A DNA stretch of 64,000 bases from Roseobacter cerasinus (GTDB lineage: Bacteria > Pseudomonadota > Alphaproteobacteria > Rhodobacterales > Rhodobacteraceae), in assembly GCF_009811755.1 (NCBI RefSeq), contig NZ_BLIV01000002.1, forward strand, positions 303,001 to 367,000, in the 5' to 3' direction. This document shows, one piece after another, positions 2,970 to 24,167 of the stretch (position 1 is its first letter; each line of letters opens with the position of its first letter). Both the position numbers and the translations under genes were made by a program. Below the pieces are notes generated by a model. That model did not search any database. It saw only the letters and a list, made by a program, of their open reading frames with translations, and was not told where the DNA came from.

Positions 2970-3794
2970 ATGTTTCAGGCAACAAAACGCGACGCGAGCG
3001 GGCTGGTTTCAGCCCTGACGCTGTTTCAGCTGATCTATCACGCAACGGTGCGCTCGATCCGCAAGACCCATAACAACGCCTTTGCCGCCCTGCTGATCAA
3101 TGTTCTGCAAACGGTGATTTTCGTGCTCGCCTTCTATCTGCTGTTCTCGTTGCTGGGCCTGCGGCGCGCCTCGCTGCGCGGGGATTTCCTGCTTTACATC
3201 ATGTCGGGCATTTTCCTGTTCATGACCCACACCAAGACCCTGAATGCTGTCGTGAAATCCGAAGGGCCGGCCAGCCCGATGATGCAACACGCTCCGATGA
3301 ACACGGTGATCGCCATCGCGTCCTCCGCTCTCGGGTCGCTCTACATTCAGGTGATGTCGCTCTGCCTGATCCTCGGGGCCTACCATGTGATCTTCCAGCC
3401 CGTGGTGATCGAAGACCCGGTGGGCGCCTTTGGCATGCTGATGGTCGCCTGGTTCACCGGCGTGGCGCTGGGTGTCGTTCTGCTCGCGGTCAAGCCGTGG
3501 TATCCGCAGGTGGTCAACATCTTTTCAACCATCTACCAAAGGGCGAATATGTTCGCCTCAGGCAAGATGTTTGTGGCCAACACCCTTCCAGGCTCGATGC
3601 TGGCCTTGTTTGACTGGAACCCGCTGTTCCACAGCATCGACCAGGCCCGCGGGTTCATCTTTATCAATTACAATCCGCATTACACCGACTGGCGCTATGC
3701 CGTCTGGGTTGGTGTGGTGCTGCTGATGATCGGGTTGATGGGAGAGTTCTACACCCGCCGACACGCCTCGCTCAGCTGGAGCGCGCGACGCTAA
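2970..3794 (+). CDS. ABC-2 type permease, capsule/polysaccharide export (KpsM type)
   Basis: Membrane subunit of a polysaccharide exporter. Six hydrophobic segments follow a basic N-terminus with FQLIYHATVRSIRKTHNNAF; ALFDWNPLFHSIDQARGF in the last third is a hallmark of the KpsM/TagG/Wzm family. From ATG 2970 it is 274 aa, the family norm of about 260-290; a GTG at 2934 would add 12 residues and cannot be excluded. No KpsT-type ATPase lies beside it, so its partner is encoded elsewhere. Context with galU and kdsB suggests surface glycan export; the actual cargo is unknown. Confidence 0.75.
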   Translation: MFQATKRDASGLVSALTLFQLIYHATVRSIRKTHNNAFAALLINVLQTVIFVLAFYLLFSLLGLRRASLRGDFLLYIMSGIFLFMTHTKTLNAVVKSEGPASPMMQHAPMNTVIAIASSALGSLYIQVMSLCLILGAYHVIFQPVVIEDPVGAFGMLMVAWFTGVALGVVLLAVKPWYPQVVNIFSTIYQRANMFASGKMFVANTLPGSMLALFDWNPLFHSIDQARGFIFINYNPHYTDWRYAVWVGVVLLMIGLMGEFYTRRHASLSWSARR

Positions 3795-17808: not shown

Positions 17809-20283
17809 TTAGCTCAGAGTACGCGTGACTTCTTCGCGCTCAAAGATTTCGATCACATCATCGGCGCGGATATCGTCATAGTTCTCAAACGCCATACCGC
17901 ATTCCTGACCTGACTGAACTTCGGCCACTTCATCCTTGAAGCGCTTGAGCGTTTTGAGAGTGCCTTCGTGAATCACGACGTTGTCGCGCAGCAGGCGCAC
18001 ACCGGCAGAGCGGCGCGCCACCCCTTCGGTCACCAGACAGCCAGCCACCTTGCCAACGCCTGTGACCTTGAAGACCTCTTTGATGGTCGCGTAACCGATA
18101 AAGTTCTCGCGAATCTCTGCGCTCAACAGGCCGGAGGCCGCCGCTTTCACATCGTCCACAAGGTCGTAGATCACTGAGTAATAGCGGATCTCAACACTTT
18201 TCTGATTCGCCGTGTTCCGGGCGGAGGCGTTGGCACGGACATTAAAGCCCATGATCGGCGCACCGCTGGCTTCGGCCAGACCGACATCCGTTTCGGTGAT
18301 CGCGCCCACTCCCGAGTGCAGCACGCGCACACGCACCTCATCGTTGCCGATCTTCTCCATCGCCTGAACGATGGCCTCGGCAGAGCCCTGCACGTCCGCT
18401 TTCACGAGAATCGGCAGCTCGCTGACATTCTCGTCCGCCTTGGCGTTGGCCATGAGCTGTTCGAGCGTGGTCGCAGCCCCCGCAGCGGCACGCTTGTCTT
18501 TCGCCGCCTGCTCGCGGTACTCGGCAATTTCCCGCGCTTGTGCTTCGGTCTCGGTCACGTTGAGAACATCGCCCGCTTCGGGCGTGCCGTTCAGACCCAG
18601 CACCTCAACTGGCACCGATGGCCCTGCTTTTTTGACGCGATCGCCCTTGTCGTTGATCAGCGCACGGACCTTGCCGTATTGCTCACCCACAACAAAGATA
18701 TCGCCCTGCTGCAACGTACCGTTTTGCACAAGAACGGTCGCTACCGGGCCACGACCGACGTCAAGTTGCGCTTCGATTACGGCACCCACGGCAGCCCGAT
18801 CCGGGTTCGCTTTAAGCTCCAGTATCTCCGCTTGCAACGCAATGGCTTCCAGCAGCTCGTCAAGGCCCTGACCGGAGATGGCAGAGACTTCGACGTCTTG
18901 CACATCACCTGACATCTTCTCAACGATCACCTCATGCTGAAGCAGATCAGTGCGCACCTTGTCCGGGTTCGCTTCGGGCTTGTCGATCTTGTTGATCGCC
19001 ACGATCATCGGCACTTCGGCCGCCTTGGCGTGGTTGATCGCCTCGATGGTCTGCGGCATCACGGCGTCATCCGCAGCGACCACAAGCACAACGATATCCG
19101 TGACCTGCGCGCCCCGCGACCGCATCGACGTGAAGGCCGCGTGGCCCGGTGTATCGAGGAAGCTGAGCACCTGCCCGCCATCGGTTGTCACCTGATAGGC
19201 ACCAATGTGCTGGGTGATGCCACCCGCTTCGCCCGCCACGACCTTCGCGTTGCGGATCGCGTCCAGCAGCGAGGTTTTGCCGTGGTCGACGTGACCCATG
19301 ATGGTGATGACCGGCGGGCGCGACTTGAGGTCATCTTCGGAGTCTTCGACCTCCTTGATCACGTCCTCGACGTCTGCGTCGGAGACCCGCACCACTTTAT
19401 GGCCGAATTCTTCGACAATCAGCTCGGCGGTGTCCTGATCAATGGTCTGGTTCTGCGTGACCATCATGCCATTCTGCATCAGCGCCTTCACAACGGCACC
19501 AACTTTTTCCGACATGCGGTTGGCCAGCTCCGAGACGACAATCGCCTCGGGCACCTGCACGTCGCGCATCACCTTCTCGCGCTCAACCGGGCCGCCCATT
19601 GCTTTTTGCCGGGCGCGCTCCTGCTTGCGCTTCATCGCCGCCATGGACCGTTGACGCCCACCGTCCCCACCGGCCAGCGCCTGGTTCAAGGTCAGCTTGC
19701 CCGAACGGCGATTGTCGTCACCACCCTTGCCGCCGCGGCGGTTGTTGTCGCGATCACGGTCCTGCTGCTTGCGCGGCGCAGCATCAGGCGCCTTTGTGTT
19801 CGGTTGGCGCGCAACGACGGGCTCTGCCGCCGGTGCAGCAGCGGCCTTGGCAGCGGCTTCGGCCTCCTGCTTGCGGCGCGCATCTTCCTCCGCCTTGGCT
19901 TTCAGGCTTTCCTCGCGCTCGCGCTCGGCTTGTTCCTTGGCTTCCTGCTCGGCCCGACGGCGTTCGCGCTCTTCCGCGCGCGCCTTCTCTTCCGCAGCCC
20001 GCGCCGCAGCTTCTTCGACCTCGCGGGCTTTGGCCGCCTGAACCGCCTTCAAGCGGCGTTCCATCTCCGCATCGGAGATCCCGGCAGGTCGCTTTGACGG
20101 ATCCCCAACAGTCGCCCCGCCCGAGCCAGACTTCGATGCACCCGGTTTGGGCACCACAACGCGCTTGCGCTTGGTTTCGACCACGACGTTCTTGGTCCGT
20201 CCGTGGCTAAAGCTTTGCTTTACGTTGCCCGGACGTGCGCTTCCGCGCAGACCCAATGTTTTTTTGCCGTCAGTATCGCTCAT
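17809..20283 (-). CDS. infB: Translation initiation factor IF-2
   Basis: GTPase that places initiator tRNA on the ribosome. 824 aa. The N-terminal 1-230 is a long charged, low-complexity region rich in K, E, R and A, predicted helical; then the short IF2_N-like region, the G domain with [15 protein letters not shown] near 331, [12 protein letters not shown] near 376 and NKID near 432, and the C-terminal fMet-tRNA-binding C2 domain. Last gene of rimP-nusA-ylxR-infB. Confidence 0.97.
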
Positions 20284-20292
20284 GAAGCTCGT

Positions 20293-20922
20293 CTATCCTT
20301 TCGAGTGGCCGATGCCACCCTCGTTTTCGCGCACGCCTTTTAATCGGTTGGCTTCCTCTACAACACGTTGCGTGAGTCCACCAGAGGCGAGCGCCCCATG
20401 TATCACAGTTTGACGTCCGAATGCCAAACCCAATTCATCTGCCGTCAACCAGCCAATATAGTGGCCGAAGTGCGGCGTGCTCAGTTTCGATTTGCCACGC
20501 CCCGATCCATCCACCGCCTGGATCAGAACCTCGGCTTCTTCCATCTGCAGCCAGCTTTTGACCTTCTCATAGCCCGCGACCGCCTTGCCTGCCTTGCGCT
20601 GCAGCGAGATCAGATCGACCACGCGCCGCGCCAGCTGTGTCTCGACCTCGGCAATCAGCCCCTCCGGCGCCTGAACGGGTTTCTTCGCACCCCGAGCAAA
20701 CAGCTTCTTGTCCACGGCCTTTTGCAGCGCCGCCCGATCCGCCGCCACGTAAAAGCCCCGCCCGGGCAGTTTGCCCAGAATATCAGGCACCACGCGATCA
20801 TCCGGCCCGGCCACAAAGCGGATCAGCCCGTATTTCGGCTGCAACTCACCTGTGGCAATGCACTTGCGACCAGGACCGTCACCACGATCTTTTGGAGCGC
20901 CACCGCGACCCATCAGGCTCAT
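20293..20922 (-). CDS. YlxR-L7Ae RNA-binding fusion
   Basis: 209 aa. Residues about 15-95 are a YlxR/DUF448 domain (RKCIATGE, IRFVAGPDDRVVPD, LPGRGFYV); residues about 100-190 resemble the L7Ae/YlxQ ribosomal fold (LISLQRKAGKAVAGYEKV, then EVLIQAVDGSGRGKSK). In Bacillus the two are separate genes at this locus. It sits 13 bp after nusA and 9 bp before infB, consistent with a role in transcript or ribosome assembly. Biochemical function unproven. Confidence 0.85.
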   Translation of the reverse strand: MSLMGRGGAPKDRGDGPGRKCIATGELQPKYGLIRFVAGPDDRVVPDILGKLPGRGFYVAADRAALQKAVDKKLFARGAKKPVQAPEGLIAEVETQLARRVVDLISLQRKAGKAVAGYEKVKSWLQMEEAEVLIQAVDGSGRGKSKLSTPHFGHYIGWLTADELGLAFGRQTVIHGALASGGLTQRVVEEANRLKGVRENEGGIGHSKG

Positions 20923-20935
20923 CCGAGGCCTGAAA

Positions 20936-22558
<1,623 letters not shown>

Positions 22559-23137
22559 TTACAGGTCTCCCTCAGCAGACTGATCCGTCTGGATCTCGTC
22601 AAATTTTGTCTCATCGATGGCGCCCGACGCTTTGCGCTGGCGCAGCATCTCCTTGATCAGGTCATCGGTCAGAACGAGTTTCGCATCCGACAACCAATCA
22701 AACTTCAGACCAATCGTGCCTTCCGCCACATTGATCAGCACCTCGTCATCCTCAATGCCCGCCAACTCGCCCTTGAAGCGCCGGCGCCCGTCGATCATCT
22801 CGCCCGTCTCGATCTTGGCCTCGTAGCCTTCGAACATCTCGAAGTCCTTGAGCCGCGTCAGCGGGCGGTCGATGCCCGGACTAGACACCTCTAGCGTGTA
22901 TTCATCGAGAATCGGGTCTTCGACATCAAGGATTGCACTGACCGCCTGGCTGATCTCGGCGCAGTCATCGACCTCGATGCCCCCCTCGGGCTTGTCGGCC
23001 ATGATCTGCAGTGTCGTACTCTTGCCCGACATCAGCCGCACACGCACAAGTTCAAACCCCATATCCTCGATCACCGGGGTGATGATCTCGGCCATGCGGC
23101 GGTCGATGGCGGCTTTGGCAATCAGGTCGTTGGTCAT
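22559..23137 (-). CDS. rimP: Ribosome maturation factor RimP
   Basis: Assists 30S subunit assembly. From ATG 23137 it is 192 aa, [18 protein letters not shown] onward; a GTG at 23152 is an alternative that would begin exactly at the end of the terminator T-run. The conserved region [21 protein letters not shown] is near residues 85-105 of the product, together with the N-terminal GFELVRVRL strand. First gene of the nusA operon. The extra C-terminal tail from about 165 is variable in the family. Confidence 0.92.
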
Positions 23138-23152
23138 CGGTCTTTCAGGCAC

Positions 23153-23175
23153 AAAAAAACGGGCGCGCGGCCCGT
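23153..23175 (-). terminator. Intrinsic terminator in the rimP leader
   Basis: On the minus strand ACGGGC pairs with GCCCGT around CGCGC, followed by a run of six to seven T that ends at 23153. It sits between a good promoter (23230-23258) and rimP, only 15 bases before ATG 23137, so rimP transcription must read through it. An attenuator is the simplest reading. Confidence 0.75.
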
Positions 23176-23229
23176 GTCGTGTTTCGGTGGAGCGTTTGGT
23201 GTGGACCCGAACGCGCCGCTGTTGTGACG

Positions 23230-23258
23230 GATATACGTGCGGGGCGGTGAGTCTGCAA
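23230..23258 (-). promoter_or_regulatory. rimP-nusA-infB promoter
   Basis: Minus-strand TTGCAG (23258-23253), 17 bp, TATATC (23235-23230). The hexamers are almost identical to those of dnaK. The RNA should start near 23223, giving a leader of about 50 nt before the terminator stem. Confidence 0.6.
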
Positions 23259-23270
23259 CCCCTGATCGCG

Positions 23271-24167
23271 TCAGCCCATCCACCACCGCTCTGCCGCGCG
23301 TAGGTTGTCGAGCGGCGCGCGGGTTCCGATCATCGTTGGGATCTGCACGTCTCGCACCGCAACCGAGCTGAGCCGCCGTGTGTCGGGCAGCAGCGCCAAT
23401 TGGTCCAATCCGGCCACAAGGCCTGGGTCCGCGAGGTCCGCCACATCAACAAACCCCTCGCGCAGCGCCTCGACTCGCACCTGATCAGACGGAATCGAGA
23501 CCAGCTCCACGCTGTCGAACCAGCCCGCGTCATCGTCCTTGTAATGCGTCTCGACCCGCTGGCCGATGACCTGTCGCCCGGGCAGGAAACGGTGCAAGCG
23601 ATAAAGCCCGGTGCCGATGCCCTCGGCCATCGCCTGCGCGATAGTGCCCGCCGGGTAGATCACCAATTGTGGCGCCGAGAGGCGATAGGGAAAATCTGCA
23701 TCAGGTGCAGTCAGCGTGATCCGCACCCGGTTTGGGGCAATGGAGTCAATCGCCGCGACATCAGCCAAAAGCGTCTCGCGGTGCAGCGCGAGCGAGGCCA
23801 CCACATCCTCCGCTGTGAACCCCGCGTCATTGTGGAACTGCACATCACGCCGCAGCTCCAGCTCCCAGATGCGGGCATCTGCGCTGCCGTGCCAAGCTGT
23901 GGCAAGCTCACCGCGCAGGGTGCCATCAGCGCTCACTTCGGTCAGCGTGTCAAAGATGAGACCAGACATAGCGACCTGCATGAACAGCCCTTGGGTCGCG
24001 CGCCCATCAAAACTGTCATCGCGCGCAGCACCCGACAGCGCCATACGTAATCGTCCACCCCGCTTTGGCTGAGGCCCGGCCGAAACACCCGTTGCGGCCA
24101 GCAACGCCGCCGCCGCACCCGAGGCAAAGAGCCCCCGTCGGTCGATATGCCGCCGCGCGCGGCTCAT
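23271..24167 (-). CDS. Shortened oligopeptide-type substrate-binding protein
   Basis: 298 aa with a twin-arginine-like signal ([18 protein letters not shown]). Residues 35-260 match the N-terminal part of family 5 solute-binding proteins (peptide/nickel type): [54 protein letters not shown] and [14 protein letters not shown]. About 200 residues of the second lobe are absent, yet the end [11 protein letters not shown] resembles the normal family end. No stop or frameshift is visible. Its ATG overlaps the pip stop (ATGA), so translation is coupled. No permease or ATPase adjoins. A natural miniature form is more likely than decay, but this is inference. Confidence 0.72.

Follow-up and report, generated by a model that had tools for sequence, protein, structure and literature searches.

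The leader of the rimP operon and the question it raises

In Roseobacter cerasinus, a hairpin followed by a run of T lies between a promoter-like sequence and rimP, the first gene of the rimP-nusA-ylxR-infB operon. This raises the question of whether transcription of the operon is decided before the polymerase reaches rimP and, if so, what sets the decision. The DNA analysed here, called the window, is a stretch of 64,000 nucleotides in which rimP is read from the minus strand, in the order upstream gene, promoter, leader, terminator, rimP, nusA, ylxR-like open reading frame and infB. A first-pass annotation had pointed out the promoter, the terminator and a T run that ends 15 bases before the rimP ATG (23137); all three were found as described, and all of its coordinates proved correct. 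The features are as follows.

23230 to 23258, minus strand: promoter-like sequence, TTGCAG (23258-23253), 17-nt spacer and TATATC (23235-23230) (sequence and conservation)
23153 to 23223, minus strand: leader RNA of about 71 nt, from the probable start to the end of the T run (models R1 and R2; the start is presumed)
23215 to 23219, minus strand: 5′ element GCGGC, proposed antiterminator strand (fold, permutation and leader comparison)
23192 to 23214, minus strand: hairpin H1, GCGUU ... AACGC (covariation)
23185 to 23187, minus strand: CCG within the conserved CCACCG stretch, predicted partner of CGG (23174-23172) in the nascent fold (fold)
23159 to 23175, minus strand: terminator hairpin, ACGGGC-CGCGC-GCCCGT (sequence; covariation in the divergent set)
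23167 to 23171, minus strand: GCCGC in the terminator 5′ arm and loop, proposed partner of the 5′ element (fold and comparison)
23153 to 23159, minus strand: terminator T run, 7 T (sequence and relatives)
22559 to 23137, minus strand: rimP, first gene of the operon (relatives; RimP_N family match at the same place)
20936 to 22558, minus strand: presumably nusA (each of the 80 named loci has a relative of its product)
20293 to 20922, minus strand: presumably a ylxR-like open reading frame (position between nusA and infB)
17809 to 20283, minus strand: presumably infB, encoding IF2 (translation)

The names nusA, ylxR-like and infB are our own assignments, and the gene upstream of the promoter, which ends at 23271 on the minus strand, we take to encode a solute-binding protein. 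The nearest named RimP relative of the window, from Roseobacter sp. WL0113, is 99% identical.

Taken alone and without comparison, the sequence of the window is not striking and would be unconvincing. A terminator scan of 2.5 kb returned 3 sites where 1.4 (s.d. 1.2) were expected, two of them being the rimP hairpin, one on each strand. A promoter scan of the same region found nothing above the scan threshold, and folding z-scores of the leader region were unremarkable (−1.25 to +0.39). That the leader stands far above chance follows from the conservation of the whole unit among relatives, not from single-sequence scores.

The leader is conserved as a unit in the family

Throughout this work "family" means the window's own, taken as Rhodobacteraceae from the named RimP loci. 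The near-relative set comprised 80 named loci and the window (81 sequences), and in 78 of these a script located both the 5′ motif and the terminator. In L075 and L077 the terminator is present and the 5′ motif carries G in place of its first A, while the contig of L057 begins 16 nt before rimP, so that its leader is absent from the sequence. Across 70 of the 78 near relatives not one letter of the terminator or its T run differs; the T run itself is the same in 76 of the 78 leaders, and the remaining two differ by one T more or fewer. The stretch that opens with the 5′ motif and closes with the T run is 69-72 nt long in 77 of the 78, the exception (L062) being a misplacement by the script. 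The gap separating the T run from the RimP match is 12 to 73 nt across the 78 leaders. An in-frame GTG at 23152, directly after the T run, would lengthen rimP by five codons (23152-23138, minus strand). Relatives differ in the spacing between the T run and the RimP start, and we therefore prefer the ATG at 23137.

Two models extended the search. Model R1 was built from alignment A1, which holds 63 of the 81 sequences (near copies and L057 were left out), and it matches 109 of 120 family genomes. Model R2, built on an alignment (A2) of 41 chosen divergent members, matches 379 of 394 family genomes, and 340 of the 347 that are of good quality; the coordinates of the matches were read for part of the 379. 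Second, weaker matches occur in some genomes (5 of 120 with R1, more with R2). RimP starts 3-77 nt past the leader in 106 of the 110 places examined; among these 110, L227 and L232 contain RimP with a misplaced leader, their loci being cut short, and no RimP was found in the stretch examined at L266 and L317 (a second weak hit). The final leader table contains 148 distinct leaders out of 160, made up of the 106 earlier ones and the 54 of the 80 loci L335-L414 that have a RimP match. The loci L335-L414 are the best-scoring R2 matches plus loci picked for an unusual terminator loop, whatever their 5′ end; searches around the divergent genomes returned genomes already sampled. A RimP tree of 146 of the 148 rows (50 columns) leaves most forks unresolved, so related rows may count more than once in the comparisons below. 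The leader is compact and of nearly fixed length, and it occurs in almost all sampled genera of the family.

The conservation extends to the promoter. TTG-17-TATA precedes the leader in 77 of the 78 near relatives, and a looser pattern (TTG and, after 16-18 nt, a hexamer whose first letter is C or T and whose second is A or T) fits all 106 of the family leaders tested, with a 17-nt spacer in 105 and with 5-8 nt separating the −10 hexamer from the 5′ motif. The 106 exclude L317, L227, L232 and one leader whose upstream sequence was unreadable. Judged by the distance to the −10 hexamer, the transcript very probably starts at the conserved AACAGCGG, the A at 23223 being the probable first nucleotide. 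That there is no room for a second promoter between the T run and rimP is a reasonable supposition rather than a proven one.

The terminator recurs across the class and matches the published rimP-leader

RimP was found in 100 of 115 alphaproteobacterial genomes chosen at nearly one per family, and the upstream DNA was read in 90 of the 100, the ten weakest being left out; two of the 90 come from the window's family. A GGGC/GCCC-type terminator, defined as GGG[CT]...[AG]CCC with a T run and lying no more than 330 nt from the RimP domain, stands before rimP in 51 of these 90 genomes, and 50 rounds of shuffling gave a mean of 1.84 and a highest count of 5. The class-wide terminator reads roughly GGUGGGCC-loop-GGCCCGCC-UUUUUU. 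Across the class, model R1 matches 7 of the 115 genomes, two of them from the window's family and five, weakly, from outside it.

A leader of this type was described in 2010 by Naville and Gautheret, who presented the rimP-leader as the most ubiquitous transcription attenuator (PMC2965389). According to their account it consists of a GGGc...gCCC stem and a U run, lies 4-130 nt before rimP at the head of rimP-nusA-infB, and has NusA as its best candidate regulator; in the general rimP-leader the authors saw no antiterminator, and a tandem form in some Gammaproteobacteria had one (PMC2965389). The Roseobacter leader likewise places a terminator in the 5′ leader of rimP-nusA-infB, with a GGGc(...)gCCC stem followed by a U run and with 15 nt between terminator and gene, inside the range of 4-130 nt. 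Because the motif equals that of the published rimP-leader, the Roseobacter leader is of a known kind, and judged by its sequence it is the attenuator of Naville and Gautheret, whose species list may have included relatives (PMC2965389). Unlike the general rimP-leader, the leader of this family has a near-fixed length, the hairpin H1 and a complementary 5′ end. A literature search, with most subscription journals outside its reach, yielded no paper that we recognised among the matches listed as describing the leader in Rhodobacteraceae.

The nusA (ylxS) leader of Bacillus subtilis is similar in that an intrinsic terminator heads the same operon. A review states that NusA of B. subtilis is autoregulated through NusA-stimulated termination in its own leader. 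That leader is 180 nt long (PMC2965389). In B. subtilis the dependence on NusA was measured, whereas for the Roseobacter leader, of about 71 nt, it is presumed, the intrinsic terminator between the promoter and the first gene of the nusA operon being recognised here by sequence and conservation only.

Rfam also holds a rimP family at the same position in the operon (RF01770, 102 positions, gathering cut-off 47 bits). This model gave no match in the leader even at E 10; in 19 genomes (the organism's own and relatives) it gave no match above the cut-off and one below it, and among 14 control genomes it found E. coli alone. With no match at the gathering cut-off, the leader is not filed under RF01770, and annotation relying on this model would miss the leader, since the model does not find it.

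In Rfam searches at the gathering cut-offs and at E 10, just two sub-threshold matches were returned around the leader. The SorX model (RF02784) matched over exactly the leader with 12.3 bits (E 4.5), under its gathering cut-off of 46.6 bits. Because the genome has a strong SorX match elsewhere (C2:189208-189281, minus strand, 90.4 bits), the weak match is taken as chance and the leader was rejected as a SorX RNA; at E 1 the model gave matches in 8 of the 14 control genomes, none over the cut-off. Outside the window the organism's own genome carries two SorX matches above the cut-off, the one just given and C7:74446-74527 (minus strand). SorX lies above the cut-off in 45 of 61 family genomes, with up to 16 matches per genome at E 1; the SorX family may be multi-copy, or the model lax. 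Elsewhere in the window, positions 3537-3689 (minus strand) match RF02645, the Ruegeria cis2 sRNA, above the cut-off at 90.2 bits.

Hairpin H1 covaries

The first-pass annotation had suggested a further stem at 23192-23214, here called H1, and the comparison bears it out. In the near relatives both partners have changed in 7 of its 8 pairs, with 87.6% of cells still paired. None of 500 shuffles reached the observed values for four of five measures, 4 reached the number of two-sided pairs, and every slid version of H1 scored lower. In the divergent set two-sided changes affect all 7 inner pairs; the outer stem CGG/CCG shows none, with 93.5% of its cells paired, and the loop varies. The six pairs of the terminator are invariant in the near set and covary in the divergent 41, where A-U became G-C in nine, C-G became G-C in two and G-C became A-U in one. 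The letters of the terminator stem and loop are conserved beyond the needs of pairing.

The 5′ end of the leader could capture the terminator arm

CAGCGGC at the 5′ end of family leaders can base-pair with the terminator's 5′ arm and loop, which read GCCGCUG if the loop is GCU and GCCGC in the window. Leaders were folded as nascent RNA, that is, up to the loop and before the 3′ arm exists, and a helix was counted when it had at least 4 pairs. Under these conditions the 5′-end helix was predicted in 139 of the 148 distinct leaders, compared with 18-43 (mean 28.1) in 20 rounds of shuffling; the full-length fold retains it in 17 of the 148. The predicted nascent fold of the window is a three-way junction, in which GCGGC (23219-23215) pairs with GCCGC (23171-23167), H1 forms, and CCG (23187-23185) pairs with CGG (23174-23172). 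The junction has a calculated energy of −19.7 kcal/mol, versus −22.4 kcal/mol for H1 together with the terminator after the 3′ arm has emerged. By the cut-offs chosen, the full junction is present in 101 of the 148 leaders; a CCG-like stretch is found in 145 and CGG at the terminator arm in 145. Such a junction could explain the conserved CCACCGG and the GC of the loop.

A permutation test was performed on 106 of the 110 leaders, with L317 (a second weak hit), L232 (not located) and L224 and L312 (no terminator found by the script) left out. Matched 5′ ends and terminators formed longer helices than all 1000 permutations (67 distinct pairs; 15 variants), and for energy 0 and 1 of 1000 permutations were as good, results that are inflated by the relatedness of the rows. 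Individual leaders show matched changes: both sides are altered in L302 with seven pairs kept (CAGAGGC/GCCUCUG) and in L310 in a shifted register (UCGCGGC/GCCGCGA), and compensation is partial in L306 and L398. On the RimP tree L302 and L398 fall among standard rows, away from the group with CUGU loops described below, and L310 sits at an unresolved fork. The 5′ GCGG is missing in 10 of the 20 leaders that lack CCGC in the terminator, versus 1 of the 128 that have it. In the divergent set the pairing holds in 93.2% of cells, and neither this value nor the covariation score was reached by any of 500 shuffles; one of the five pairs changed on both sides (2 cells, L302 and L309), a number that 172 of the 500 shuffles reach, and in L309 two of the other four pairs are broken.

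Because the 5′-end pairing is mostly invariant, it is tested by few changes, and most of its variation is one-sided. Where the 5′ element departs from the consensus (35 leaders), its pairing is poorer than the consensus element would give in 23, equal in 8 and better in 4. The consensus 5′ end reaches −12 to −15 kcal/mol with most standard loops, and the twelve leaders with a CUGU loop pair weakly, at −3.8 to −7.2 kcal/mol in 11 and −8.3 kcal/mol in L303. The outer stem of H1 (CGG/CCG) is a rival partner for the 5′ element. The terminator arm is occupied by some partner in 145 of the 148 leaders, versus an average of 118 of 148 in shuffles. In the rest of the class, no excess of upstream pairing was detected with 50 nt (33 of 48 versus 36.9) or 70 nt (37 of 47 versus 37.8) of upstream sequence, and a slight one appeared with 100 nt (43 of 47, versus 35-42 in shuffles). 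On these folds and comparisons, we put the operation of a 5′-end antiterminator in the cell at somewhat below an even chance.

Some leaders depart further from the standard sequence. The twelve with the CUGU loop carry UGU in place of GC after GGGCC (L303, L305, L308, L309, L314, L383, L387, L388, L395, L399, L400 and L401), and in five of them the 5′ GCGG is lost and AACAG kept, which could pair with CUGU or CUGUU. The 5′ ends of L080 and L272, GCGCGG and GCGCG, are still complementary to CCGCGC or CGCGC of the terminator.

Other readings of the leader

The attenuator may also work without any antiterminator. NusA (or NusG) alone would then set the strength of the terminator, with the conserved stem recognised by that factor or by the polymerase, as was proposed by Naville and Gautheret for the general rimP-leader (PMC2965389). 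The conservation of stem and loop letters beyond pairing fits this explanation, as do the B. subtilis precedent reported in the review and the finding that the terminator is class-wide while R1 has just five weak matches outside the family. However, it leaves unexplained the conserved 5′ AACAGCGG, the CCACCGG and the loop GC in the family, and the matched changes in L302 and L310. We regard it as not far short of an even prospect, a terminator set by NusA without an antiterminator being about as likely as the use of the 5′-end pairing in the cell.

Another reading, which we consider unlikely, takes read-through to be incidental: the leader would chiefly yield a stable small RNA of about 71 nt that acts in trans, in the manner of UpsM before mraZ in Rhodobacter. 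The parallel comes from the same family: UpsM is the leader of the dcw cluster in Rhodobacteraceae, is likewise family-wide, and has an intrinsic terminator with read-through into a conserved operon; it is reported to arise by termination in the 5′ leader, with read-through estimated at about 1 in 100 (PMC5089854). A rimP leader has, moreover, been named among ProQ-associated RNAs derived from attenuators. UpsM differs in that it heads another operon and has a longer leader of 268 nt, the likeness being one of description (PMC5089854). Against a function in trans, the H1 loop is variable among divergent members and so offers no obvious conserved seed there, and the main text of a Ruegeria sRNA study names neither nusA, infB nor rimP.

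The hairpin might instead be the 3′ terminator of the upstream gene, with rimP expressed from elsewhere or by read-through. The upstream gene does lie on the same strand, ending about 100 nt before the hairpin, and 67 of 79 testable loci contain a relative of it, 63 of them within 250 nt of rimP. However, in the window a promoter-like sequence separates this gene from the hairpin, and all 106 leaders tested have one equally far ahead of the leader. In 12 of the 79 loci a search at E 1e-5 found no relative of the gene and the leader is kept all the same, and in three of those 12 the longest nearby open reading frame runs the opposite way. Because the promoter stands between the upstream gene and the hairpin, we assign the hairpin to rimP and hold the contrary assignment to be very improbable. 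At L032, L065 and L076 the longest open reading frame upstream of rimP points in the opposite direction, and the leader is present.

Finally, the first-pass annotation had proposed an antiterminator formed by GGCGCG (23217-23212) with CGCGCC (23167-23162) of the terminator 3′ arm, and had called for the covariation of this stem and of 23192-23214 to be examined. Both segments are located where it placed them, and 92.3% of cells pair in near relatives because both sides hardly change. Whereas the second stem covaries, this one has no pair with two-sided changes, and every one of 500 shuffles was as good. Single pairs are broken (18/66 in 17 sequences and 16/68 in 8, out of 61), the CGCGCC segment is absent in relatives whose 3′ arm reads GGCCC, and the pairing competes with the well supported H1, so that we give it almost no credence. 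A better fit is obtained when almost this same 5′ segment is paired with the 5′ arm and loop instead.

A proposed mechanism and its meaning

The attenuator reading of the first-pass annotation gains support from the conserved unit before rimP, from its independence of the upstream gene and from the published rimP-leader family. We consider it highly likely that the leader acts as a transcription attenuator of the rimP-nusA-ylxR-infB operon; that the attenuator senses NusA is probable, by analogy with the related systems. Transcription would start at about 23223, and the polymerase would meet the intrinsic terminator after 71 nt, where it would either stop and leave a short RNA or read through into rimP. 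Higher NusA would give more stopping and hence less NusA made, as the behaviour of B. subtilis and E. coli suggests. The stop fold is predicted to consist of H1 and the terminator, and the read-through fold of a junction around H1 in which GCGGC holds GCCGC and CCG holds CGG. RNA polymerase covers about 12-14 nt of RNA; because this length would still be inside the enzyme as the 5′ arm exits, the choice between stopping and read-through would be made with the polymerase on the U run.

An attenuator with NusA as its signal and two mutually exclusive folds is, taken whole, the explanation that we judge best, and we hold it with moderate confidence. A more specific version is doubtful: a bistable attenuator whose transcript uses its own 5′ end to seize the 5′ arm of the terminator within a three-way junction, in a kinetic race tipped by NusA. 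If this version were true, termination itself would be the point where the cell senses NusA activity.

What is new here is a candidate antiterminator for a published attenuator that was described, in its general form, without one. NusA, IF2 and RimP link transcription, the start of translation and ribosome assembly, and the compact, family-wide leader offers a small and easily mutated system for asking how bacteria measure NusA.
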